From a virus: a stretch of 32,686 nt of DNA. The notes beneath the pieces were generated by a model that was given only the letters and a program-made list of their open reading frames with translations, was not told the origin of the DNA and did no database searches. Positions 14,969 to 28,266 of this stretch are shown here, piece by piece (position 1 is the stretch's first letter; every line of letters begins with the position of its first letter). The stretch lies in the IMG/VR virus record IMGVR_UViG_3300044684_000366, positions 1 through 32,686 of that record. The stretch is one strand, 5' to 3'. The position numbers were made by a program, and so were the translations under genes.

Positions 14969-15214
14969 CTACGATTTATAATTAGTGCCCATCGGGCCAG
15001 GATTGGTTGACATTGATTTCGGCGCTAGTTTCTCAAATGGAGGCTGGTTGCCTTGAGGTGCCATTGAGGGCTGACCCGCTACCACAGACTGCTGACCAAA
15101 GGTATAGCCAGTTCCCTTCACACCATCAGCATTCGAGAGTTTGTATGGGCCTCCAACCGTATCAAGCAGATTCGGTGTGGATGGTAACCCGGTTGCTACA
15201 TTTGGATCGTTCAT
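14969..15214 (-). CDS. Small Pro/Gly/Asn-rich protein of unknown function
   Basis: 81 residues from ATG 15214 with GGAGG at 9 nt. Composition is rich in Pro, Gly, Asn and Gln with few hydrophobic residues, so probably largely disordered. First gene after the terminator that closes the capsid unit and 11 nt before the decoration candidate, suggesting co-expression with head accessory genes. Family not recognised. Confidence 0.65.
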   Translation of the reverse strand: MNDPNVATGLPSTPNLLDTVGGPYKLSNADGVKGTGYTFGQQSVVAGQPSMAPQGNQPPFEKLAPKSMSTNPGPMGTNYKS

Positions 15215-15238
15215 AGGAGATTGACCTCCATTGCAAAC

Positions 15239-15271
15239 AAAAAAGCCAACGGCTTGTGGCTCGTTGGCTCG
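15239..15271 (-). terminator. Intrinsic terminator, GAGCCAC-loop family (copy 3)
   Basis: Minus-strand stem GCCAACG / CGTTGGC with a loop containing AGCCACAAG, six T, preceded by CGAGCC and followed by GTTTGC. It closes the capsid/intron region and ends 25 nt before the next ATG. A TTGACA lies upstream (15308-15303) but the -10 candidates are poor. Confidence 0.85.
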
Positions 15272-15328
15272 TGAATTAGCTTAACTACGCTGTTACAATG
15301 CCTGTCAAAATTCCGCTTCCGCCTAAGT

Positions 15329-15554
15329 CACTTTGTTACTCGTCCAACGGACGGGGCTAGCAGTTTCCTCTAGCCTCTCTGGTTTCATTATGAGATTATT
15401 GCCAGAGGTCGGATCATATCTTCCCTTTCGGGCCTGCGTGTGATCTCTACGGACTCCGCACCTTTCGGATTGGTTGCCTCGGTATTGCCAGTCTCCTGAG
15501 TTCCACCGATACAGCAGGTTTTTCATGTTAGCTCATTAATATTGCTATTACGCG
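15329..15554 (-). ncRNA. Group I intron 2 (226 nt, no ORF of its own) downstream of capsid exon 2
   Basis: Minus-strand core visible by eye. P1: exon TGTTAGT (15561-15555) with GCTAACA (15532-15526), including the conserved T-G pair at the splice site. P3: CCTGC (15518-15514) / GCAGG (15437-15433). P4: TCGGT / ACCGA within P-like and Q-like segments. P6 closed by GCAACC / GGTGC. P7: GATCA (15445-15441) / TGATC (15416-15412), the latter in an S-like AAGATATGATCC. P8: CCCGAAAGGG. P9: CTCTGG / CCAGAG, plus two more 3' hairpins. P9.0 AC / GT places the 3' end at G15329. A 67-codon frame inside it is a chance frame over these helices. Confidence 0.82.
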
Positions 15555-15577
15555 ACTAACAAGCAGCACTTCTACTT

Positions 15578-17556
15578 CTACTGATTGATGAGCGTTTCTG
15601 ATGTATATACTCCATACATCCACTGGGTGGGATGGCTTTGATCCAAATTTGTTACTCACTCTTACGAGCGGGATAGGTCATTTCTGCCTATCTCATACGG
15701 TTCAATTCCCGTATGTTCAGACTATCTCTTATTCCTTCAGATACTTCTACCTGTTAGGATGCTAGTACATAGTCGTTACACCTTCCGATTAGCTATGCAG
15801 CTAAAAGGCTCGGCTCGGTATTGGCGGCCTTGCGGCACTTCGCAGCTTTCACCGAATTCTCTAGCTTTCGACCTGAAATTACTCCCAGGCGGCCCAATCT
15901 TTGTTTAGGCGGATATTCCAGCGCCCACATCTCTCTATTCGTTGATACCCGTAATGGAGGTTTATCAATTTCTGCAACCTGGAAGGGCAAAGTGAGTGAA
16001 ACAGCAATTATAGTACCTTGCATTAGGTAGGGCACCATAATGATATCCATTAACCTTCCAGTCGTCTGATTGATCCACTTCGTCGCACGACCACCGCCAA
16101 CCAAATCAGACTGCGCAGGGCCTGTTGGCTGCACATTCACACGGTAGTTGGTTGATTGCGTGATGATGTTGCTGAGGGCTTTGTGATCTTTCACACTCAC
16201 AAGCAAACATTCAGGATTGGCACGAGAGTTGAGATACATTGCCTCAAGCCAGGTATCGATATCAGTCTTGGCCAGTGCACCGCCTGTATCAGCCACACGT
16301 TTAACTGCTGCCGTCTCACCACCAACACCTGCAGTACTCAGAGTACCAGTGTTGTTGTAGATGAGCGATTGAATACCGTCAAACATCAGGGGCTGATTGG
16401 CAGGAGTACCACCGCCGCCACTGGTAAATGCGATCGCTGTGTTACCAGCACTGACTACCGTGCTATAGGCTGTACCAGAGCCTGTGCTGCTCGTCATAGT
16501 AACGGAGAAGTAACCCGATGCATAGCCGCCGGGATCATTCAAGGCTGAAGCACCACCAAAGTTTGAGGAGGCCGATTGCTTCCACATGGCCGTATTGGCA
16601 GGCTGTGTAGAGCCAGTGCCAACGTACACGTTGTAGCTCGTAGCGTTGGGCACGCGCATGATATTGAAGGAAATCGTGCTCGTGCTACCAGTCGTAACTT
16701 GTGTAAGTGCAGTCGGAGTGGAACCGCCAAATGCCAACGTTTCGCCTTGCGCATTCACGGCTGTTACAATAATCCAGTACGTTGCAGCAGAAAGCGTGCC
16801 ACCCGTGGTTGTAGTGGACGCGCCAACAGCAGGAGGAGGAGCCCAGAGATTCTGCGCACCATTTAGGTATGCCACTTCCTGACCGAGCATCAATGATGGT
16901 GCCAACTTCGAGGCAACTTTTGCGCGAACATCAGGCTCAAACATACGCCCGTAGAGTTCGCTTTCCATTGTCACGACATCACTGAAAGCCAATTGCCGCA
17001 ACACATTGGATTTATTGACCCAGGTGTAACTGGCCTTCTGCGGCGCGGTTTGCTGTGCCAGGATGAACGAGCCGAGAGTTGGACCACTTCCACCAAACAC
17101 ATCTGTAATAGCACGCCAGTTCTCAACATCGATGCCCACGCTTGGCGTACGTGGAAGCATGTTTCTGAACGGGGTATCGAACGGGACAACAAACTTGGCA
17201 AGCGGCTCAAGGTAGTAGCCAGTCCAGTCCGCGTTATTGCCAATATACTGCTGATCGCGGTTCTGACTACCTTGCTGGATCGCGTTAATTGTTTCTTCGT
17301 TGAGATGTTGATGAACGAACTGCTTGGGCATGTTCATTCGGCGCATCTCTTGCACAAAGCGATCTGAGAACTCGGCTCCGTCCTCATAGGCGATACCGTG
17401 ACGAGCACGCGCCATAATGAGAGCCTGGTTTTTGAGGATGTCACCTTCGGTATACAGTCCTTCATCGATGACACCCACTGCTACGCGGGAATCGCCGATG
17501 CTTTTTTGTGCACTTTGGGGCAACTGTTCCTTGATGGATGTATCAGTTACTGCCAT
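15578..17556 (-). CDS. Major capsid protein, interrupted by a group I intron (exons 17556-15907 and 15643-15578)
   Basis: Exon 1 gives 550 residues and exon 2 adds 21 (ends QWMYGVYTSETLINQ, TAG 15580-15578); 571 in total. Unspliced, the frame runs into the intron and ends after 37 meaningless residues at 15793. The exon junction restores EYPP-DQSHPTQW and a W-YGVY-ETL pattern usual at capsid C-termini. The N-terminus (MAVTDTSIKEQLPQ) and F-PFDTPFRNMLPRTPS agree with an HK97-fold family. Residues ~240-388 look like an inserted fibronectin-III/Ig-like domain (ATYWIIVTAVNAQGETLAFG). ATG 17556 has GGAG at 9 nt and follows the protease stop by 3 nt. It assembles the shell around the scaffold and is probably processed by the upstream protease. 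Confidence 0.88.
15644..15906 (-). ncRNA. Group I intron 1 (263 nt) interrupting the major capsid gene
   Basis: Minus-strand helices. P1: exon CCGCCT (15912-15907) with GGGCCG (15895-15890), T-G at the splice site and one mismatch. P2: CCTG / CAGG. P3: GCTAG (15865-15861) / CTAGC (15765-15761). P4: TCGGT (15855-15851) / ACCGA (15819-15815). P6a: TTAGCT-GCAT-AGCTAA. P7: GACTAT (15774-15769) / ATAGTC (15725-15720) in an S-like AAGAGATAGTC. P9: CATACGG / CCGTATG (15715-15709 / 15700-15694), then GATAGG / CCTATC and a GTAA-loop hairpin. The 3' end is G15644, with P9.0 AA / TT, and exon 2 starts GATC, able to pair with GATT before the guide (P10). No ORF of its own. Confidence 0.87.
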
Positions 17557-17561
17557 TATTT

Positions 17562-19334
17562 TTATCTCCGGCGTTGCGCTGCAAGAGCTGCAGCCATCGC
17601 ATCTACTTGTTTGTCAGGAGTATCCAACTGGCCACGCTTGGAAAGTTCAGCCATCGCCTGGTAAACAGCGCCATAAGTGAGGGCTTCATCATTGCGTGGT
17701 AGTGGATCAGTAGCCAACTGCTTTTCAATTGGCGGACGAGGCATCACACTCGCATTCAAAACCGGGCCACCAGGCATCGGCTGTTCCGCAATTTTGTCAA
17801 CTTGACCTTTTACCGCTGACAATTCAGCGCGTACTTCGTCTAAGCTTGATTTGGTTGGGATCTCAGCAATGCGAGCCTCAAATGTCTCGAACGCCCTGGT
17901 GATTGAAGATGTAATAAGTTGGTCGATATTGGTCGGAGCGGCGTTGACATTACTGCGTGCTAATGTGCCTGCAATGCTCTGTAGTCGTGAATAAACGGGC
18001 TGTAATGAGCGCTCAATAAGAGAAGTAACAACCCGCTCCATGTCCTTCTCTTGGCCGTTGTAGAGTGATTGCCAGTCGTTGTCTGGATCGTCATAGCCAC
18101 CAAGATCAACATCACCATCATTGTCAGGATCGATGATCTTCATGGCGGCTGCACACTGCGGGCAATCGTCTTTGCAGTTTTTCATCTGCGCCACAGCTGC
18201 GTGCAATGTATGTGCTATGGCTTTATGGTTCGCATCCTGTGTGCCTTTACCAACACGTGCTCCTGCTCTTTCCAAGGATCGGGAAGCTTCTGGCTCGTCT
18301 TCTGTCGTATCCAGCACATCGGTAGCAAATCCGTCAGCACGTACAATGGTGACATCGCAACCAGGACAGGCCGGGTTATCGACTAACGACAACTCAGCAA
18401 CGGTATATCTTGGCAGGTAAGGGTATTCTTTGCCCTGGTACTCTTTTTTTGGCCAGCGGCGTGGATCGTTGCCAAACTCAGGATCAGGGATAATCGATGC
18501 AGAGTAGCCAGTGAGTACGTTGTCCTCAACTTTGAGCCAGGTGTCCTGCGCACCACGCGAGACGCGAGATCCGACATAAATAGCGCGTTCTTCAGGATCG
18601 GGCGTGATGTCAACAGCCTTGCCAACAGCTTTCTTTGGATCGTGCTGCTCGCGGATATTGCCACGCCATTTGGTCCAGGCTTCAGGATAATAGCCGAAGA
18701 TCGTGCCGTATGAGTCTGGCACTTCAGCGGTAGCCTGCCCCCAAACTTCGCGCTTGGTGGCATCGATACGCACCAATGGCAAGCTCATCACATGGCGATC
18801 AGTGGTCTGGATGGCGGTAGCAGGTTCGTGTGAATGGTTATGTGAGTGGGCTCGTTCCTGCGTAGCTTCTTCGTGGCTGTGTTTGTGGTCTGCATCATTG
18901 TCGTGGCTGTGCTCGTGCTCATGGTTCTCATCGTCGCCTTGACCGCCAAAAGCCGGGTGAGCATGTGAGTGTGTACCACTAAATGCATCGTGACTACCAT
19001 CAGCGCGAATGAGTACGCCAGTGGTTACACGCTCTTTGGAGTCTCCATCATCAGACTCCTCTTTCCATGTATCTGGCAATGGATACCCCTTTCTCTTAGC
19101 AATCGCTTTTAGACGCTTTTTGATCGATGCCTGCTTATCTTCAGGGGCACGCCCAAGCAATTTCACTGCTGCATTGAAATGCGCCAAATCGTGCGCAGGA
19201 TACTTTTGTTCTTCTGGCCAGCCAAAATCACTATCAGGCATGGCATCACGTTCTGCTTGGGAAACATAGCGAGGAATGCCGAATTCTTCAGCGCCCTCAA
19301 GCCAAACGTCTATGAGCGCATCTTTTACCGTCAT
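17562..19334 (-). CDS. Prohead serine protease with N-terminal accessory domain, His-rich linker and C-terminal scaffold-like region
   Basis: About 590 residues from ATG 19334 (GGAG at 8 nt); the frame extends to 19370 but lacks a better start. Residues 1-95 (FGWPEEQKYPAHDLAHFNAA) resemble a small helical domain often found in phage protease or capsid operons. Residues ~112-172 are a tract very rich in His, Asp and Glu, potentially metal binding. Residues ~185-335 are the caudovirus prohead protease: His231 (NIREQHDPKKAVGKAV), Ser278 (TGYSASI) and AELSLVDNPACPG. Next come CKDDCPQC (387-394) and a calcium-loop-like DPDNDGDVDLGGYDD (402-416). The last ~140 residues are coiled-coil, fitting a scaffold released after cleavage. 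Immediately upstream of the capsid gene, as expected. Confidence 0.85.
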   Translation of the reverse strand: MTVKDALIDVWLEGAEEFGIPRYVSQAERDAMPDSDFGWPEEQKYPAHDLAHFNAAVKLLGRAPEDKQASIKKRLKAIAKRKGYPLPDTWKEESDDGDSKERVTTGVLIRADGSHDAFSGTHSHAHPAFGGQGDDENHEHEHSHDNDADHKHSHEEATQERAHSHNHSHEPATAIQTTDRHVMSLPLVRIDATKREVWGQATAEVPDSYGTIFGYYPEAWTKWRGNIREQHDPKKAVGKAVDITPDPEERAIYVGSRVSRGAQDTWLKVEDNVLTGYSASIIPDPEFGNDPRRWPKKEYQGKEYPYLPRYTVAELSLVDNPACPGCDVTIVRADGFATDVLDTTEDEPEASRSLERAGARVGKGTQDANHKAIAHTLHAAVAQMKNCKDDCPQCAAAMKIIDPDNDGDVDLGGYDDPDNDWQSLYNGQEKDMERVVTSLIERSLQPVYSRLQSIAGTLARSNVNAAPTNIDQLITSSITRAFETFEARIAEIPTKSSLDEVRAELSAVKGQVDKIAEQPMPGGPVLNASVMPRPPIEKQLATDPLPRNDEALTYGAVYQAMAELSKRGQLDTPDKQVDAMAAALAAQRRR

Positions 19335-19380
19335 GTATTGCACTCCTGCGCCTGCGTGGCGCTCCAACAAAATTGCAATA

Positions 19381-21370: not shown

Positions 21371-24300
21371 CTAGCCTTCCATCGTTGCTGTACTTTTATG
21401 TCCACGCTGAGTTACTCGCTCAAACACAGCATTAATGCTCTTTGCTAGATCGTCCTTGTTTGCAATTGCTGGCTCTGCCTCTTTGCCACGTGCGCGATTG
21501 AACACATTACGAACCTGATCAGGCGTTGTACACTCCACAAGTTCGTCACTTATCCATTTATGAATATCTGGAGATATGAGTGTGGTGGTAAAGCCTCTCT
21601 GTGTACGCCCTGCCTTCACATCGTCTATTGCCCTGGTCCGCCAGCGTTTGTATTCTTGCGAAATAGCGCGTTCGTCTCCTCTATCGAGAGTGCTTTGCGT
21701 GGCGTCATTGATCGCGGTGGAGACATCCTCAACATCTCCGCTTCCTGTTGCTCTAAGAGCCATTGCGTCTTCTTCGGATCGCGCAAAATGCGTTCCATCT
21801 TCCTGGCTTGACGTTTGCGCTTGCATCTGTTGCGTGAGTAGTTGAAGGAGTTCGCTAATCGTGTAGCGCTTTTCTTCAAGTCCCTTTTGCTCGTTGGTAG
21901 CATCTTCTTCTTCCTCCTCATCTTCGTAATAGTCATACTCACTCTCATCTGCCAACATGGCACGAAGCATCTCTGACTGTGCTTTCTGTACAAGCTTTTC
22001 CAGTACGCTCGCCCTGGCTTGTGTCATGCCACGCTGGCCTTGCAACTTACCAATTGCCGATGTCAGATTCTCCACGAGGCTAGCGGCATCTTCTTCATTC
22101 TGATGAGAGTTGATAGCCTGCATTAAATCATGGAGATCCTGAGCAATGTTTGCGGCTTCTTGTGACTCCTGAGCCGTCCACGTCTTCGACGGCTTGCGTC
22201 CTGAGAGCGCGTTGTAGAGTTGAGCCTTAGAGCCAATCGTGTTTACTAATGATTGCAGTTGTTTGGCTGCGGTCTGCTGTGCCTTTGCTGTCTTCATAGC
22301 GGCTTGCACTGGTGATTTAGTTGACTTCGCAGCAGTCTTAGCGGCTTTCGTGGCTGCAACCTGTGCTTTCTGTTGAGCTTTCGCTGCCATCTTCCCGGCT
22401 TTTGCCTTCGCTGCTGCTGCCTGCTTCTGCAATCGTGCCTTTTGCGCCTGAGCCCTGGCTTTTGCTGCTGCGGCTTTCTTCTTCGCTGCGGCCTTGGCCT
22501 TTTCAGCCTTCAGTTTCGCGGCTTGTGCCCTCTTCTCAGCAGCTTCCTTCTGTCTCTGCTCACGCTCTGCAGCCTTCTCTTCACGAAGCTTTGCAGCCGC
22601 AGCCGCCCGTTGCTCGCGTTCCTGTTGGCGCAATTGTCTAGCTTGAAGTGCGGCCTGATGCAAATTGGCTTCGGCTTGATGGAGTGCCGCCCTTGCCGCT
22701 GCCTTATCCCCCGGCGCTGCATTGTGCAGGTTCTGTTGAGCCTGGTGGAGAGCATCACGTGCACTCTGTAACTTGGTTTCAGCGGCTTGTAACTGAGGTT
22801 GGAGTTGTGCCGCTGCTTGCGAGGCTTGTTTGGCTGCTGGTGATGTGTCGTGTTTGACACCATACGCTGGATGAGCAAAATCGCCATGTGTTTTTTGGTC
22901 GTGGTCCTTCCCACCGGGTTCGTGGCGCTCAAAAAGAATAAGATCGGCAAGAGGATTATAGCCATACTCATCGATGCCATACACACGCTCTAGCTCGGAG
23001 AATGGCTCATCCTGGTCCGATTTGAGCAGTTGCAGGATCTCATCTTCATATTCCAGATCTTCTGGTGTTGGCAATTCACTCTCTTCTTCGTCTAGTTCGT
23101 CGGCTTCATCACCACTATCTGCATCATCATCTGCTGAATCGTCCATCTGACCAGACGTGGCACGACTCAACTCTTCCTCGTCGCTCTGATCAGGTTTGTT
23201 CTGGCTACTCTTCTTCTGTGGTGGTGTCTCTTCTTCGTCCTCATCGTCCTGTGGTGGCTTCTGTTGCTGCGTGGGTTGTTGTGGTTGCTGTAACCCTTGC
23301 AGTTTGGCTTGCAGGGCTGCATTGCGCATTTTGTCGGAGGCCATGTCATCGAGGAAGATTGGTCCGTCTTTACTGAGTAAAATTCTTCCAATGTAGGGTG
23401 CATCTGGATCGTCAGGGAGTTTTAACAACTTACCAGCATTGGTTACACCGAGGATACCAGACGTTACCAGTGTACTATATGCACCTGCTAACTCTGATAC
23501 ATCTTCCTCCTCATCAAAACCAGCAAAAGACGCTTCAAACATCTCACCGTGTAGGTCAGGATCGAAGTCATTGTTCATACATTGCGTAAGAAAGCCAGCA
23601 TACACCATAGCAAGCGGGTCAATGGTACGCCTGTATGTCACATTTTGCTGAGAGTCACCACTACTCTTGTGAATATCCTCAGTGAAAGCAACATCCTGCA
23701 TACTTAGGCCATATGCCGCCACGCAGATGTTAATGAGGAACTTATCGAAAGTAGGATCAAGCTGATATTGCTCAAACGCCTGATACTCCATGCCTGGTTG
23801 TGTAAAACGCATACGCACTTGCTGACTTTGATTGCCTGCAAGTAAAGCGTTCCACGCCTGTTCAAATGCATCGATCTGGTCAGGAGTCCACGTAGCATCG
23901 GCTGGCACCTTCATCATGCCTTGTGGAATATTGCCCTCTGTGAAATGGCTCAAGTCTTTCTTCTGCTTGCGCAATGCTTGATTAACAAGCATGATGATAC
24001 GCTCGACTCTGGATTGTCCATAAGGATTGTCGGCGGCTGGTGACTCTTGGTAGTGGATCATTTCATTTGTTGTAAACCATTGACCAGGCAAACCCCAGGG
24101 ATATTGTTGATACGCATAATTAGGAGGTTGCGGTATCTTTCCCCAATCATCCAAGAGGGGTTTGAACTGGTCCCCAGCTATGATTTCCAATGAATAGAGC
24201 CCACCGCCACGTTTTTTACGCTTATAAATGTATAGTTCATCTAATTGGGTTTGTTCTCTAAGTGCAATGCGAATCCAAGAATGCAAATCATGCATCTTAT

Positions 24301-24790
24301 CAGGTGAATCAAACCATGTTCTAAAATAAGAGATTTCAGATTGATAATCCTTGTCATCGGCTCCAGAGGCTACATACTCAGGTTTAAGTGATATCTTTAA
24401 TTCCATGCGTGGCACTAAGTCCAGCCAAGTGCGCTCACATAAAGTGACCCCTTCGTATAATTTCGCCAAAGAACGTAGTTGTTGAAAAGATGGCCGCTCT
24501 GGATCATTTAGAGTGCGATCCGGCGGGAAGGTATTTATCGCAACTGGAAAGCGCCACTGTACTGGATATCCACCGGGATTTACACCGGGCTGTACGGGTA
24601 ATGGTACACCAGGACTGAATAGGGCACTTTGTCCTGTAGTAACGTTTTTTGTGGTAGTTCCGTAAAAAGTTTGCCCAAGAGTCCCCTGAAGAGATCCGGG
24701 CGGGACATATAACAGCCCACCGCTGCCAGGTAAAGCAATAGGTGTTGCCCTGCTAAGAGATGCTTTCTTTTTACGAATACGTCTACTCAT
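21371..24790 (-). CDS. Portal protein with very long acidic, KDHDQKTHG, coiled-coil and C-terminal extensions
   Basis: 1,139 residues, about twice a normal portal. ATG 24790 has GGAG at 5 nt. Residues ~60-500 contain portal features (ERTWLDLVPRMELKISLKPE, LEIIAGDQFKPLLDDWG, NEMIHYQESPAADNPYGQS, LRKQKKDLSHFTEGNIPQG, CVAAYGLSMQDVAFT). Residues ~500-610 are extremely acidic. A GGKDHDQKTHG motif (~628-638) is of a type seen in phage minor head and protease proteins. Residues ~650-830 are an Ala/Lys/Gln coiled coil. The end (~1000-1139) is a mixed helical domain (TISELLQLLTQQM; SPDIHKWISDELVECTT). Portal and part of a second morphogenesis protein may be fused. It forms the DNA entry vertex and motor dock. 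Confidence 0.85.
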   Translation of the reverse strand: MSRRIRKKKASLSRATPIALPGSGGLLYVPPGSLQGTLGQTFYGTTTKNVTTGQSALFSPGVPLPVQPGVNPGGYPVQWRFPVAINTFPPDRTLNDPERPSFQQLRSLAKLYEGVTLCERTWLDLVPRMELKISLKPEYVASGADDKDYQSEISYFRTWFDSPDKMHDLHSWIRIALREQTQLDELYIYKRKKRGGGLYSLEIIAGDQFKPLLDDWGKIPQPPNYAYQQYPWGLPGQWFTTNEMIHYQESPAADNPYGQSRVERIIMLVNQALRKQKKDLSHFTEGNIPQGMMKVPADATWTPDQIDAFEQAWNALLAGNQSQQVRMRFTQPGMEYQAFEQYQLDPTFDKFLINICVAAYGLSMQDVAFTEDIHKSSGDSQQNVTYRRTIDPLAMVYAGFLTQCMNNDFDPDLHGEMFEASFAGFDEEEDVSELAGAYSTLVTSGILGVTNAGKLLKLPDDPDAPYIGRILLSKDGPIFLDDMASDKMRNAALQAKLQGLQQPQQPTQQQKPPQDDEDEEETPPQKKSSQNKPDQSDEEELSRATSGQMDDSADDDADSGDEADELDEEESELPTPEDLEYEDEILQLLKSDQDEPFSELERVYGIDEYGYNPLADLILFERHEPGGKDHDQKTHGDFAHPAYGVKHDTSPAAKQASQAAAQLQPQLQAAETKLQSARDALHQAQQNLHNAAPGDKAAARAALHQAEANLHQAALQARQLRQQEREQRAAAAAKLREEKAAEREQRQKEAAEKRAQAAKLKAEKAKAAAKKKAAAAKARAQAQKARLQKQAAAAKAKAGKMAAKAQQKAQVAATKAAKTAAKSTKSPVQAAMKTAKAQQTAAKQLQSLVNTIGSKAQLYNALSGRKPSKTWTAQESQEAANIAQDLHDLMQAINSHQNEEDAASLVENLTSAIGKLQGQRGMTQARASVLEKLVQKAQSEMLRAMLADESEYDYYEDEEEEEDATNEQKGLEEKRYTISELLQLLTQQMQAQTSSQEDGTHFARSEEDAMALRATGSGDVEDVSTAINDATQSTLDRGDERAISQEYKRWRTRAIDDVKAGRTQRGFTTTLISPDIHKWISDELVECTTPDQVRNVFNRARGKEAEPAIANKDDLAKSINAVFERVTQRGHKSTATMEG

Positions 24791-24847: not shown

Positions 24848-25003
24848 ATGAATAAACAACCAACAGAAAAGCGTATCTCTATACGCTTCCCAATTGATTT
24901 ACTTGAAGCCATTCGCAAACAAGCAAAAGCCAATGAGCGGTCCTTTAATGGTGAGGTCATTTGGTTATTACGAAAGGCAATCGAACAGGAGCTAAAAGTA
25001 TGA
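24848..25003 (+). CDS. Arc-like ribbon-helix-helix DNA-binding protein
   Basis: 51 residues, plus strand, opposite to the phage operon. The sequence fits an Arc/MetJ fold: a basic beta strand (KRISIRFPI), helix A (DLLEAIRKQAKANE), the turn RSFNGE and helix B (VIWLLRKAIEQE). The RFP-D-L and N-E pattern is typical of Arc. No ribosome binding site: the ATG sits at the predicted transcription start. The perfect inverted repeat over its promoter suggests autorepression. Its TGA overlaps the endonuclease ATG (ATGA), so the pair is coupled. Likely keeps endonuclease expression low. Confidence 0.85.
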   Translation: MNKQPTEKRISIRFPIDLLEAIRKQAKANERSFNGEVIWLLRKAIEQELKV

Positions 25004-25887
25004 CACCCACCGATCTCGCGTGGCTTGCAGGACTTATTGAAGGCGAGGGATGTTTTACGCGCCATACCACGCGTGGAAGATGGCACAGTGCTAATATTAA
25101 AGTGCAAATGTCCGATGAAGATGTTATCCGCAGGTGTCTCTCGGTCTCCAATCTTGGTCGGGTACATGGACCCTATGTCAGGGACAATCCCAAGTGGAGC
25201 CCTCAATGGATTTGGGCTGTGACCAGACGTGATGAAGGGATTGAGTTGATGACACTGTTGTATCCCTTGATGGGGGATCGGCGGCAATCTCAAATTAGAG
25301 AGTGTTTGAAAATCTATCAGACCGTCCCTTCGCATGAGACGTACTACCCACAGGAATACGATTCTTTTGCATGGCTTGCAGGGTTGATCGAAGGAGAAGG
25401 ACACATGAGATCTGATATCAAGGCATCGCAATATGATTTCATCACTAAGATTATCATGAAAGTTGTCATGGTCGATGAAGACATCATCCAGCGCTGTCTC
25501 GCAATCTCTGGAGTTGGTCGCGTTTGGGGCCCAATTTCCCCAAAGGATCCTAAGAACAAACCAACATGGGCATGGCAAGTCGCAAGTCGAGAGGATGTCG
25601 TGGCACTCATGACAAAACTCCGTCCTTTGATGGGTGAAAGGCGTCAAAGGCAAATTGATGAGTGCCTCTCTGTTCATGAGCTACATCCTCCTAGATTAAG
25701 CAACCAACATCAGATAGACAAGACTCATTGCCCTCAAGGTCATCCATATGATGATGAGAACACACTTGTCCATAGAGGGCACCGTTCTTGCCGTGCGTGC
25801 ATGAAGATCGCGGGAAAACGCCACAGAGAAAAGCAACGTCTCCTTCGGCAAACACATGATAGACAAGAAAATATAGATTGCTTGTAA
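25000..25887 (+). CDS. Free-standing two-motif LAGLIDADG homing endonuclease with C-terminal zinc motif
   Basis: 295 residues from the ATG at 25000. Two copies of WLAGLIEGEG (8-17 and 125-134) carry the acidic residues that bind metal in LAGLIDADG nucleases. The two halves repeat each other (DEDVIRRCL / DEDIIQRCL; LYPLMGDRRQSQI / LRPLMGERRQRQI), giving a monomer with pseudo-twofold symmetry. A C-terminal extension has C-x2-GH...C-x2-C (C244, H248, C264, C267) then a basic tail, probably extra DNA contacts. Not inside an intron here: it stands between the terminase operon and the portal gene on the opposite strand with its own promoter. Function as a mobile cassette is known for the family; its target is unknown. 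Confidence 0.9.
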   Translation: MTPTDLAWLAGLIEGEGCFTRHTTRGRWHSANIKVQMSDEDVIRRCLSVSNLGRVHGPYVRDNPKWSPQWIWAVTRRDEGIELMTLLYPLMGDRRQSQIRECLKIYQTVPSHETYYPQEYDSFAWLAGLIEGEGHMRSDIKASQYDFITKIIMKVVMVDEDIIQRCLAISGVGRVWGPISPKDPKNKPTWAWQVASREDVVALMTKLRPLMGERRQRQIDECLSVHELHPPRLSNQHQIDKTHCPQGHPYDDENTLVHRGHRSCRACMKIAGKRHREKQRLLRQTHDRQENIDCL

Positions 25888-26641: not shown

Positions 26642-26875
26642 TCATCCCATCACCCTTTTCCAAATCTCCTCATCGCTCATCCCAGGCAACTCCTCCACTC
26701 TTAGTCCAACCGGCGTAAAATAGCGATCATACTGCGATGTGTTCGGTGTCACTCTGCACAGTTGCCCATCACGATAGCACAGCTCGAAATTATCCCATGC
26801 CACAAAGATCGTTTGGCTGGTAGCAGCATTGCGTACGGCTGTAGCAAGGATAGCGCATGCTTTGTCATCACTCAT
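26642..26875 (-). CDS. Hypothetical protein coupled to large terminase
   Basis: 77 residues from the ATG at 26875, which overlaps the large terminase stop (ATGA) and has GGAGG in front. The frame reaches 26893 but that start lies inside the terminase gene without a ribosome site. Contains a beta-rich part (TIFVAWDNFELCYRDGQLCRV) and a C-terminal helix (MSDEEIWKRVMG). Not recognised. Confidence 0.65.
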   Translation of the reverse strand: MSDDKACAILATAVRNAATSQTIFVAWDNFELCYRDGQLCRVTPNTSQYDRYFTPVGLRVEELPGMSDEEIWKRVMG

Positions 26876-28266
26876 CTCGCACCTCCAGGCCACGCAGGTG
26901 CTGCGGTTCGCGTGCGGGCCAGTTCGACACGACGTTTCATGGCTGCTACGTGCTCATCTGGGCTCATCTCACCACCAAGCATTAATTCAGTCAATAACCA
27001 ACATAGTGCATCTAAATGGTTAGGTGAGTCTTCACCCTGCTCCCATTGGCATTGTTCATCTTCTAGCACGGGGAAAAGTCCAACATGATGCACCATTCCC
27101 TTCTCATAGAGTGCTGCAACAGGCTCTGCCCTCGTGTATTTGCCGCGTTTCGCATGAACGCGCTTAAACGAGATCGATTTATCCACGGTGCGAATAGTCG
27201 TCTCAATCAACTCACCGCCCTGGTTGCCCTCGGCAATCATGCGATCCGCATGAAACTTATGATACTGGGCAACAGCTTCACTCGCCCACGTCATAGGTGA
27301 AGCCCTCAGTGAAGCATCTGCCAAGATATAAGCATGCCCATCTTTGCCAACGCCACCAACAATAATACCTGTCTCATCGCTATCTTCACCACTGGTAACG
27401 GCAGGATCAATAGCCACGCCTATTCGCACAAGATCAGGAGCCTTCGTTACACGATAGGCATCAATCATCATTTCACGATTCCAAAGGGCATTCTCATTGT
27501 CTTCAATGAGTAAACCTTCCAGTTCCTGACGCCCAAGACGAGTATTTTCGTAGCGTTTAATAATTTCGTTGAAAAAGGCCTCTGCTAGATTAGAACGATT
27601 GTCATAGGTTGTACTACGGCTTATCTTCGTAGTAGAAGAAGATGCCAATCGTTTGATTAATTTCGTCACACGAGGGGTAGTTGTCAGACATGCCTGTGGA
27701 TTATTGCCAAGACGCAAGCCAAACGAGGCCATATCATATGCTTCCTCTGCATACTGCCACGCTCCGATCTCGTCTAGCCACATAGAGGAACACTGCGGAC
27801 CTCTTAAAGATTCGGGCTCATCGGCACTAAACGTGATAGCCTGAGCACCATTATCCCAAACGAGACGACGTTTAGATCGCTGGTAGACGGGTTTATCCCA
27901 GGGTGGAGAAATAGCAAGAATACCAGACTCACCATCGATCATCACGTCCCGCACATCGGCTGCGGTACGTCCAATGAGGTGCAAGTATGGCGAGGTTTCC
28001 TTCTTCATCCGTATCCACTCAGCACCCGCCCTCGTTTTACCTGCACCGCGCCCTCCCATATTCAACCATGTGACCCACTTCCCTCGCGGTGGTAATTGAT
28101 TATCTCTAGCCCATGCCTCCCAGAGATAACGTAGTTGGATAGCCTCTGCATCAGTCAGCGATTTAACGAACTCTGTCTTCTGCTCAATAGATAGTCGAGA
28201 AAATGTGCGGGCATCCTCAAAAGAAAGAAAATTATTCAGTTTTGTGTTCTTTGTCTGGCGCGGCAT
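26872..28266 (-). CDS. terL: Terminase large subunit
   Basis: 464 residues. ATPase domain: Walker A GGRGAGKT (71-78), Walker B SSMWLDEIG (D165, E166), coupling motif LTTTPR (194-199). Nuclease domain, RNase H fold: first acid D287 in GVAIDPAVTSGED and last acid D419 in SPNHLDALCW. Both domains are intact, so the enzyme should be active in cutting and packaging DNA. The ATG at 28266 lies inside the small subunit gene (35-nt overlap), the usual coupling of the two. It docks on the portal. Confidence 0.95.
   Translation of the reverse strand: MPRQTKNTKLNNFLSFEDARTFSRLSIEQKTEFVKSLTDAEAIQLRYLWEAWARDNQLPPRGKWVTWLNMGGRGAGKTRAGAEWIRMKKETSPYLHLIGRTAADVRDVMIDGESGILAISPPWDKPVYQRSKRRLVWDNGAQAITFSADEPESLRGPQCSSMWLDEIGAWQYAEEAYDMASFGLRLGNNPQACLTTTPRVTKLIKRLASSSTTKISRSTTYDNRSNLAEAFFNEIIKRYENTRLGRQELEGLLIEDNENALWNREMMIDAYRVTKAPDLVRIGVAIDPAVTSGEDSDETGIIVGGVGKDGHAYILADASLRASPMTWASEAVAQYHKFHADRMIAEGNQGGELIETTIRTVDKSISFKRVHAKRGKYTRAEPVAALYEKGMVHHVGLFPVLEDEQCQWEQGEDSPNHLDALCWLLTELMLGGEMSPDEHVAAMKRRVELARTRTAAPAWPGGAR

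Follow-up and report, generated by a model that had tools for sequence, protein, structure and literature searches.

Two separate, ORF-less group I introns very probably self-splice from the mRNA of a probable phage capsid gene, and they appear to spread by short-tract recombination between related phages. Both lie on the minus strand of a 32,686-base virus record (the whole stretch analysed, hereafter the window), at the 3' end of the gene. An earlier reading of this DNA, made from the letters alone (the sequence-only reading), had proposed two group I introns in this place, and covariance models bore it out: Rfam model RF00028 for intron 1, and a model built here, R2, for intron 2. The gene is divided as follows:

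15907..17556, minus strand: exon 1 of the capsid gene, 550 codons (1650 nt) ending ...EYPP; delimited by the ORF list, the phrog_13692 match and homologues collinear to here
15644..15906, minus strand: group I intron 1, 263 nt, ORF-less; RF00028 50.0 bits, E 1.6e-11
15580..15643, minus strand: exon 2, 64 nt, encoding DQSHPTQWMYGVYTSETLINQ plus one base; spliced translation as in intronless homologues
15329..15579, minus strand: group I intron 2, 251 nt, no recognisable ORF; R2 79.6 bits at 15522-15406
15285..15328, minus strand: exon 3, 44 nt including the stop TAG, encoding YLGGSGILTGIVTA; from the spliced translation, with an end conserved in intronless homologues

Probable capsid gene and gene order

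Head genes follow one another on the minus strand in the order terminase (26872-28266), portal (21371-24790) and head maturation protease (17562-19370), and then comes the interrupted gene, from 17556 downward. Because it follows the protease, and because a Pfam SU10_MCP match (weak, E 1.8e-5) was found in one of 11 close homologues, it is probably the major capsid gene. The unspliced ORF of 587 aa matches phrog_13692, a family without a named function, as far as residue 553. Neither PDB sequences nor the annotated phage collection contained a match to the capsid protein, and no relatives of it came up when GTDB genome contigs were scanned twice. AlphaFold2, run with the 11 close homologues, reached a pLDDT of 34, a model too poor for use of the fold.

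Just past the capsid gene, at window 15268-15239 (minus strand), a terminator-like hairpin (GCCAACG...CGTTGGC followed by six T) was seen by eye; it is common to the window and three intronless relatives (L003, L004 and L005). Between portal and terminase, in the opposite orientation to the head genes, the window encodes a 308-aa protein (24961-25887, plus strand) with two LAGLIDADG-like motifs and matches to phage homing endonuclease families; the gene is absent from the 103-kb record of L005 and is a candidate for an endonuclease that promotes intron homing in trans. The end of an ORF for a 51-aa Arc-like ribbon-helix-helix protein (24848-25003, plus strand; PF03869, E 5.7e-8) overlaps the start of this endonuclease ORF, and the small protein is possibly its regulator.

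Spliced product and splice sites

The 37-residue nonsense tail that the sequence-only reading had recognised on the capsid frame is real: in the 587-aa ORF it follows the 550 residues of exon 1 and is spurious. Once both introns are removed, exons of 1650, 64 and 44 nt give a protein of 585 aa in which DQSHPTQWMYGVYTSETLINQ is followed directly by YLGGSGILTGIVTA and the stop, and the predicted C-terminal end is DQSHPTQWMYGVYTSETLINQYLGGSGILTGIVTA. Intronless homologues end in ...EYPPDQSHPTQWMYG.YSSET...QYLGG.GIL.G.VTA/S and then stop, and removal of 15906-15644 and 15579-15329 yields an end of this type in the window, to the last residue. A YLGG-GIL-G-VT-like end was present in every intronless homologue read to its end. 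The spliced end equals that of L005 at 31 of 35 residues, with only 74 of 108 positions identical in the DNA of exons 2 and 3. The capsid frame had previously been taken to end at TLINQ, which was wrong: the third exon adds YLGGSGILTGIVTA and the stop, conserved in intronless homologues.

The predicted junctions join CCGCCT to GATCAA (intron 1) and AATCAGT to ACTTAG (intron 2). Collinearity of homologues through 15906-15644 had been named beforehand as evidence against an intron; homologous capsid genes are collinear through neither intron, and excision of both restores the host gene, as it should for group I introns.

Intron 1

Intron 1 was matched by RF00028 at window 15916-15695 when a 1-kb stretch was searched (50.0 bits, exactly the gathering score) and with 49.2 bits in a search of the whole window. 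Its position had been given exactly by the sequence-only reading (15906-15644, 263 nt), and the helices pair at these ends: P1 (GCCU/GGGC, 15910-15907/15895-15892) with a U.G pair at the 5' splice site, P10 (GAUU/GAUC, 15899-15896/15643-15640), and also P2, P3, P4, P7, P8, P9, P9.1 and P9.2. The last base is a G, at 15644. The minimum free energy is below that of shuffled sequences (z -4.23). No match to the intron was found in the annotated phage collection and, apart from the capsid read-through, no ORF of at least 60 aa lies inside it.

L007, a relative whose DNA is about 75% identical, has an orthologue in the same position (RF00028, 57.6 bits). Between L007 and the window, compensatory changes were seen in P3 (GCUAG/CUAGC to GCUGG/CCAGC) and P4 (UCGGU/ACCGA to UCGGG/CCCGA). 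The two introns are 86% identical by BLAST, a higher value than the approximately 76-78% of the adjacent coding sequence, and this suggests that intron 1 was transferred separately from the capsid gene, although constraint on the RNA could also explain the 86%.

Intron 2 and its covariance model

Intron 2 begins at 15579 and is 251 nt long, a shift of 25 nt from the start at 15554 (226 nt) proposed earlier, and the middle exon is accordingly 64 nt, not 89 nt. A start at 15554 was rejected, as it would leave a stop ahead of the conserved YLGG end. The helix earlier taken for P1 (GUUAG/CUAAC) is P2, at 15560-15556/15531-15527, and covaries with an intron in the relative L008, where it is CUAGC/GCUAG. 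P1 proper is CAGU/GCUG (15583-15580/15567-15564) and places a U.G pair at the splice site; its loop pairs with exon 3 (15328-15325) through P10 (AAGU/ACUU). P2.1 carries a GCAA loop, P3 pairs at 15518-15514/15437-15433 and P7 at 15445-15441/15416-15412; further helices are P4, P5, P8, P9, P9.1 and P9.2, and the terminal base is a G, at 15329. The minimum free energy is modestly below that of shuffles (z -1.92). An endonuclease ORF was not found within intron 2; the lone ORF of at least 60 aa lying largely inside it (67 aa, 15323-15526) exits the intron and resembles a translated ribozyme core. A comparison with the annotated phage collection gave no match.

A check with the Rfam group I model, suggested by the sequence-only reading, succeeded for intron 1 but was silent on intron 2, with no report even at E 10; members of the intron 2 family in L032, L034 and L037 pass RF00028. 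Two DNA patterns of the intron 2 core, searched against viral contigs, retrieved 19 and 105 stretches. Alignment of 13 cores of the family gave P4, P5, P7 and P8, with eight core pairs changed on both sides and pairing kept; P3 was fully paired in 12 of the 12 members tested, with several different sequences. Model R1 includes intron 2, so the 114.6 bits it gives for this intron are not independent. In the control model, R2, made from 12 other members, the window intron and its nearest relatives were left out; it matched intron 2 with 79.6 bits (E 9.3e-19) and gave a weak score for intron 1 (17.4 bits, E 0.019; 24.2 bits with R1), the best match elsewhere in the window being 12.0 bits. Intron 2 is a member of a widespread family of phage introns, often tandem and often in capsid genes.

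The sequence does contain the core words common to both introns, and GAGTAACAAA ahead of each 3' splice site, as described earlier. The description of the introns as diverged relatives holds for a shared structural class and fails for close kinship, the two being about 50% identical (MAFFT) with a best BLAST E of 0.093, not significant. Recent duplication of one intron into a tandem pair was ruled out by this identity and by the weak cross-scores.

Distribution of related introns

Among the relatives retrieved by the capsid search, intron cores were confined to the window, L002, L007 (where the core is of the intron 1 type) and L008. The record of L023 gave a sub-threshold RF00028 match (22.6 bits), distant from the capsid gene. 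In L008, a relative of intron 2 lies elsewhere in the capsid gene, after ...CACAGT, and its P1 is also CAGU/GCUG; the contig ends inside this intron, before its 3' site. A possible P10 has been assumed with GGATGT, an exon sequence that other relatives conserve.

Twenty of 69 further loci, fetched with the intron patterns, had two cores on the same strand within 400 nt, though several of the 20 are near-identical contigs and represent fewer independent cases. Introns of this kind lie in phrog_13692 genes in L078, L050 and L034, at other positions (two of the three near the 3' end); in L061 and L073 the genes concerned match a major head protein family. The earlier view that it is unusual for a capsid gene to have small introns in tandem thus stands only in part, given the tandem loci, several of them in capsid genes, and a published capsid gene in five fragments.

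Two side observations concern more heavily divided genes. On the minus strand of L042, cores at 1128-1247 and 874-992 belong to introns of a phage gene that, as judged by eye, are apparently separated by about 17 nt of exon. Four to six group I cores within a few kb, on one strand of single phage contigs, were seen in L110, L047, L037/L039 and L034, as in heavily split genes.

Allelic exchange between near-identical phages

The introns are part of a tract that distinguishes otherwise near-identical phages:

15176..16042, minus strand: allelic exchange tract, in which the window and L002 differ from the otherwise near-identical L003 and L004

Both introns are common to L002 and the window (99.8% identity), and L003, L004 and L005 are without either; the whole 103-kb record of L005 gave no group I intron match. 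L002 and L004 show one difference in 18755-16043 (2.7 kb upstream) and none in approximately 3.2 kb downstream. Between these flanks there are 15 differences in 16042-15907, all silent and at third codon positions, then introns versus none, then 3 differences at 15186-15176. As the divergence is confined to about 0.9 kb between near-identical flanks, two versions of the capsid gene end have recently been swapped by recombination. Assembly error is an unlikely source of the introns, as the same arrangement recurs in L002, an IMG/VR contig of its own that departs slightly from the window. No donor of either allele stands out from the block identities to other relatives. The exons of the intronless allele carry CCA for CCT at the intron 1 site and ACCT for ACTT at the P10 site of intron 2.

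In L003-L005, a 148-aa LAGLIDADG ORF (PF14528, E 3.3e-7; 5849-6295 in L005) begins approximately 90-100 nt past the capsid stop, and L006, L011 and L012 have GIY-YIG genes at that post-capsid position. Two other exchange patches were observed nearby. One, specific to L005, comprises 21 changes in about 130 bp of the capsid gene (window-equivalent 16498-16369) between identical flanks, and is a second exchange tract. The other, specific to the window, comprises 12 changes at 15197-15101 in the downstream 81-aa gene, where L002 agrees with the intronless contigs.

A break-driven cause of the swap is likely. Ordinary homologous recombination, with no homing started by an endonuclease, is quite possible too, if not the favoured account: the two nearby patches show that short tracts without introns occur, and no endonuclease known to cut either intron site was found. 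Against it stand the composition of the tract, in which one allele has the introns and the other a free-standing endonuclease gene, the presence of homing endonuclease genes after the capsid gene in several relatives, and the elevated identity of intron 1 between the window and L007, which suggests separate transfer.

A more elaborate and rather doubtful scenario goes beyond the break-driven swap. The capsid 3' end might be contested by two incompatible selfish elements, the ORF-less intron pair and the free-standing LAGLIDADG gene, each replacing the other by break repair; insertion of the introns would destroy the endonuclease target, and the exon changes of the endonuclease allele would make it a poorer host for the introns. 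The intron 2 lineage would move to new capsid gene sites through its four-base guide CAGU, as the position in L008 suggests.

Proposed mechanism

Splicing and catalysis in vivo are proposed by analogy with the established chemistry of group I introns. In each intron the internal guide would form P1 with the final bases of the exon before it, a U.G pair marking the cut. A guanosine bound at P7 would attack at the 5' splice site and then be replaced by the intron's own last G, and the exons would be joined, with P10 aligning the 3' exon. With both introns out, the 585-aa capsid protein would be made. Lacking an endonuclease of their own, the introns would spread when co-infecting relatives recombine and a short part of the gene is replaced, with a DNA break made in trans as the probable trigger.

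Exon skipping, in which the 5' site of intron 1 is joined to the 3' site of intron 2 and two capsid forms result, is very unlikely, even though it has been published for two group I introns of a phage terminase gene (PMC11878797) and the middle exon of this gene is very small; the product of skipping, CCT ACT TAG across the junction, stops one codon past it and loses the conserved 35-residue end. Nothing in the sequence favours skipping, though it could give a minor product. That intron 1 alone is active and intron 2 a degenerate remnant, the protein ending at TLINQ in exon 2, is highly improbable: removal of intron 1 alone does give a stop TAG beginning at 15580, at the edge of intron 2, and a slightly shorter protein, and Rfam does not detect intron 2, but exon 3 encodes the conserved end in full and in frame, and intron 2 has kept its core helices, P1, P10, terminal G and a high R2 score.

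Comparison with known systems and significance

Splicing of both introns, as preferred here, has several published counterparts. Group I introns within a capsid subunit gene occur in mycobacteriophage LittleE and lactococcal phage Tuc2009 (PMC3706429), but there the gene has one intron, with a homing endonuclease ORF in LittleE, whereas the window gene has a pair of small ORF-less introns with 64 nt between them. Several group I introns split the capsid gene of a crAss-like Zeta-group phage into five fragments (PMC7886860); those were recognised mainly via their encoded endonuclease domains, unlike the compact ORF-less introns of the window. Two or three group I introns per gene, some with a small exon between them, have been described in Twort and Bastillevirinae, with splicing shown (PMC11878797). 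These interrupt polymerase, terminase and reductase genes and have a mean length of 802 bases, in contrast to introns of 251 and 263 nt in a capsid gene, for which splicing is inferred.

Collaborative and intronless homing by free-standing endonucleases is known from T4-like phages, T7-like phages and a cyanophage (PMC3984707, PMC2988022, PMC10448857), and exchange of flanking exon markers is a classic by-product of homing (PMC2988022). The present case resembles these systems in having ORF-less introns, free-standing endonuclease genes at the same gene and flanking exon exchange; it differs in that the endonuclease gene adjoins the intronless allele, not the intron-bearing one, and in being known from sequence. 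Tandem group I introns in phage capsid genes have already been published; the present example comes with an unusually clean pair of natural alleles.

Capsid genes serve as phage markers and as annotation anchors. Standard ORF calling in this gene appends 37 spurious residues and drops 35 genuine, conserved residues, and one of the two introns escapes the standard intron model. The intron 2 family, often tandem in phage structural genes, looks under-annotated. The near-identical phages with and without the introns are a natural before-and-after pair for the spread of introns that have no endonuclease.
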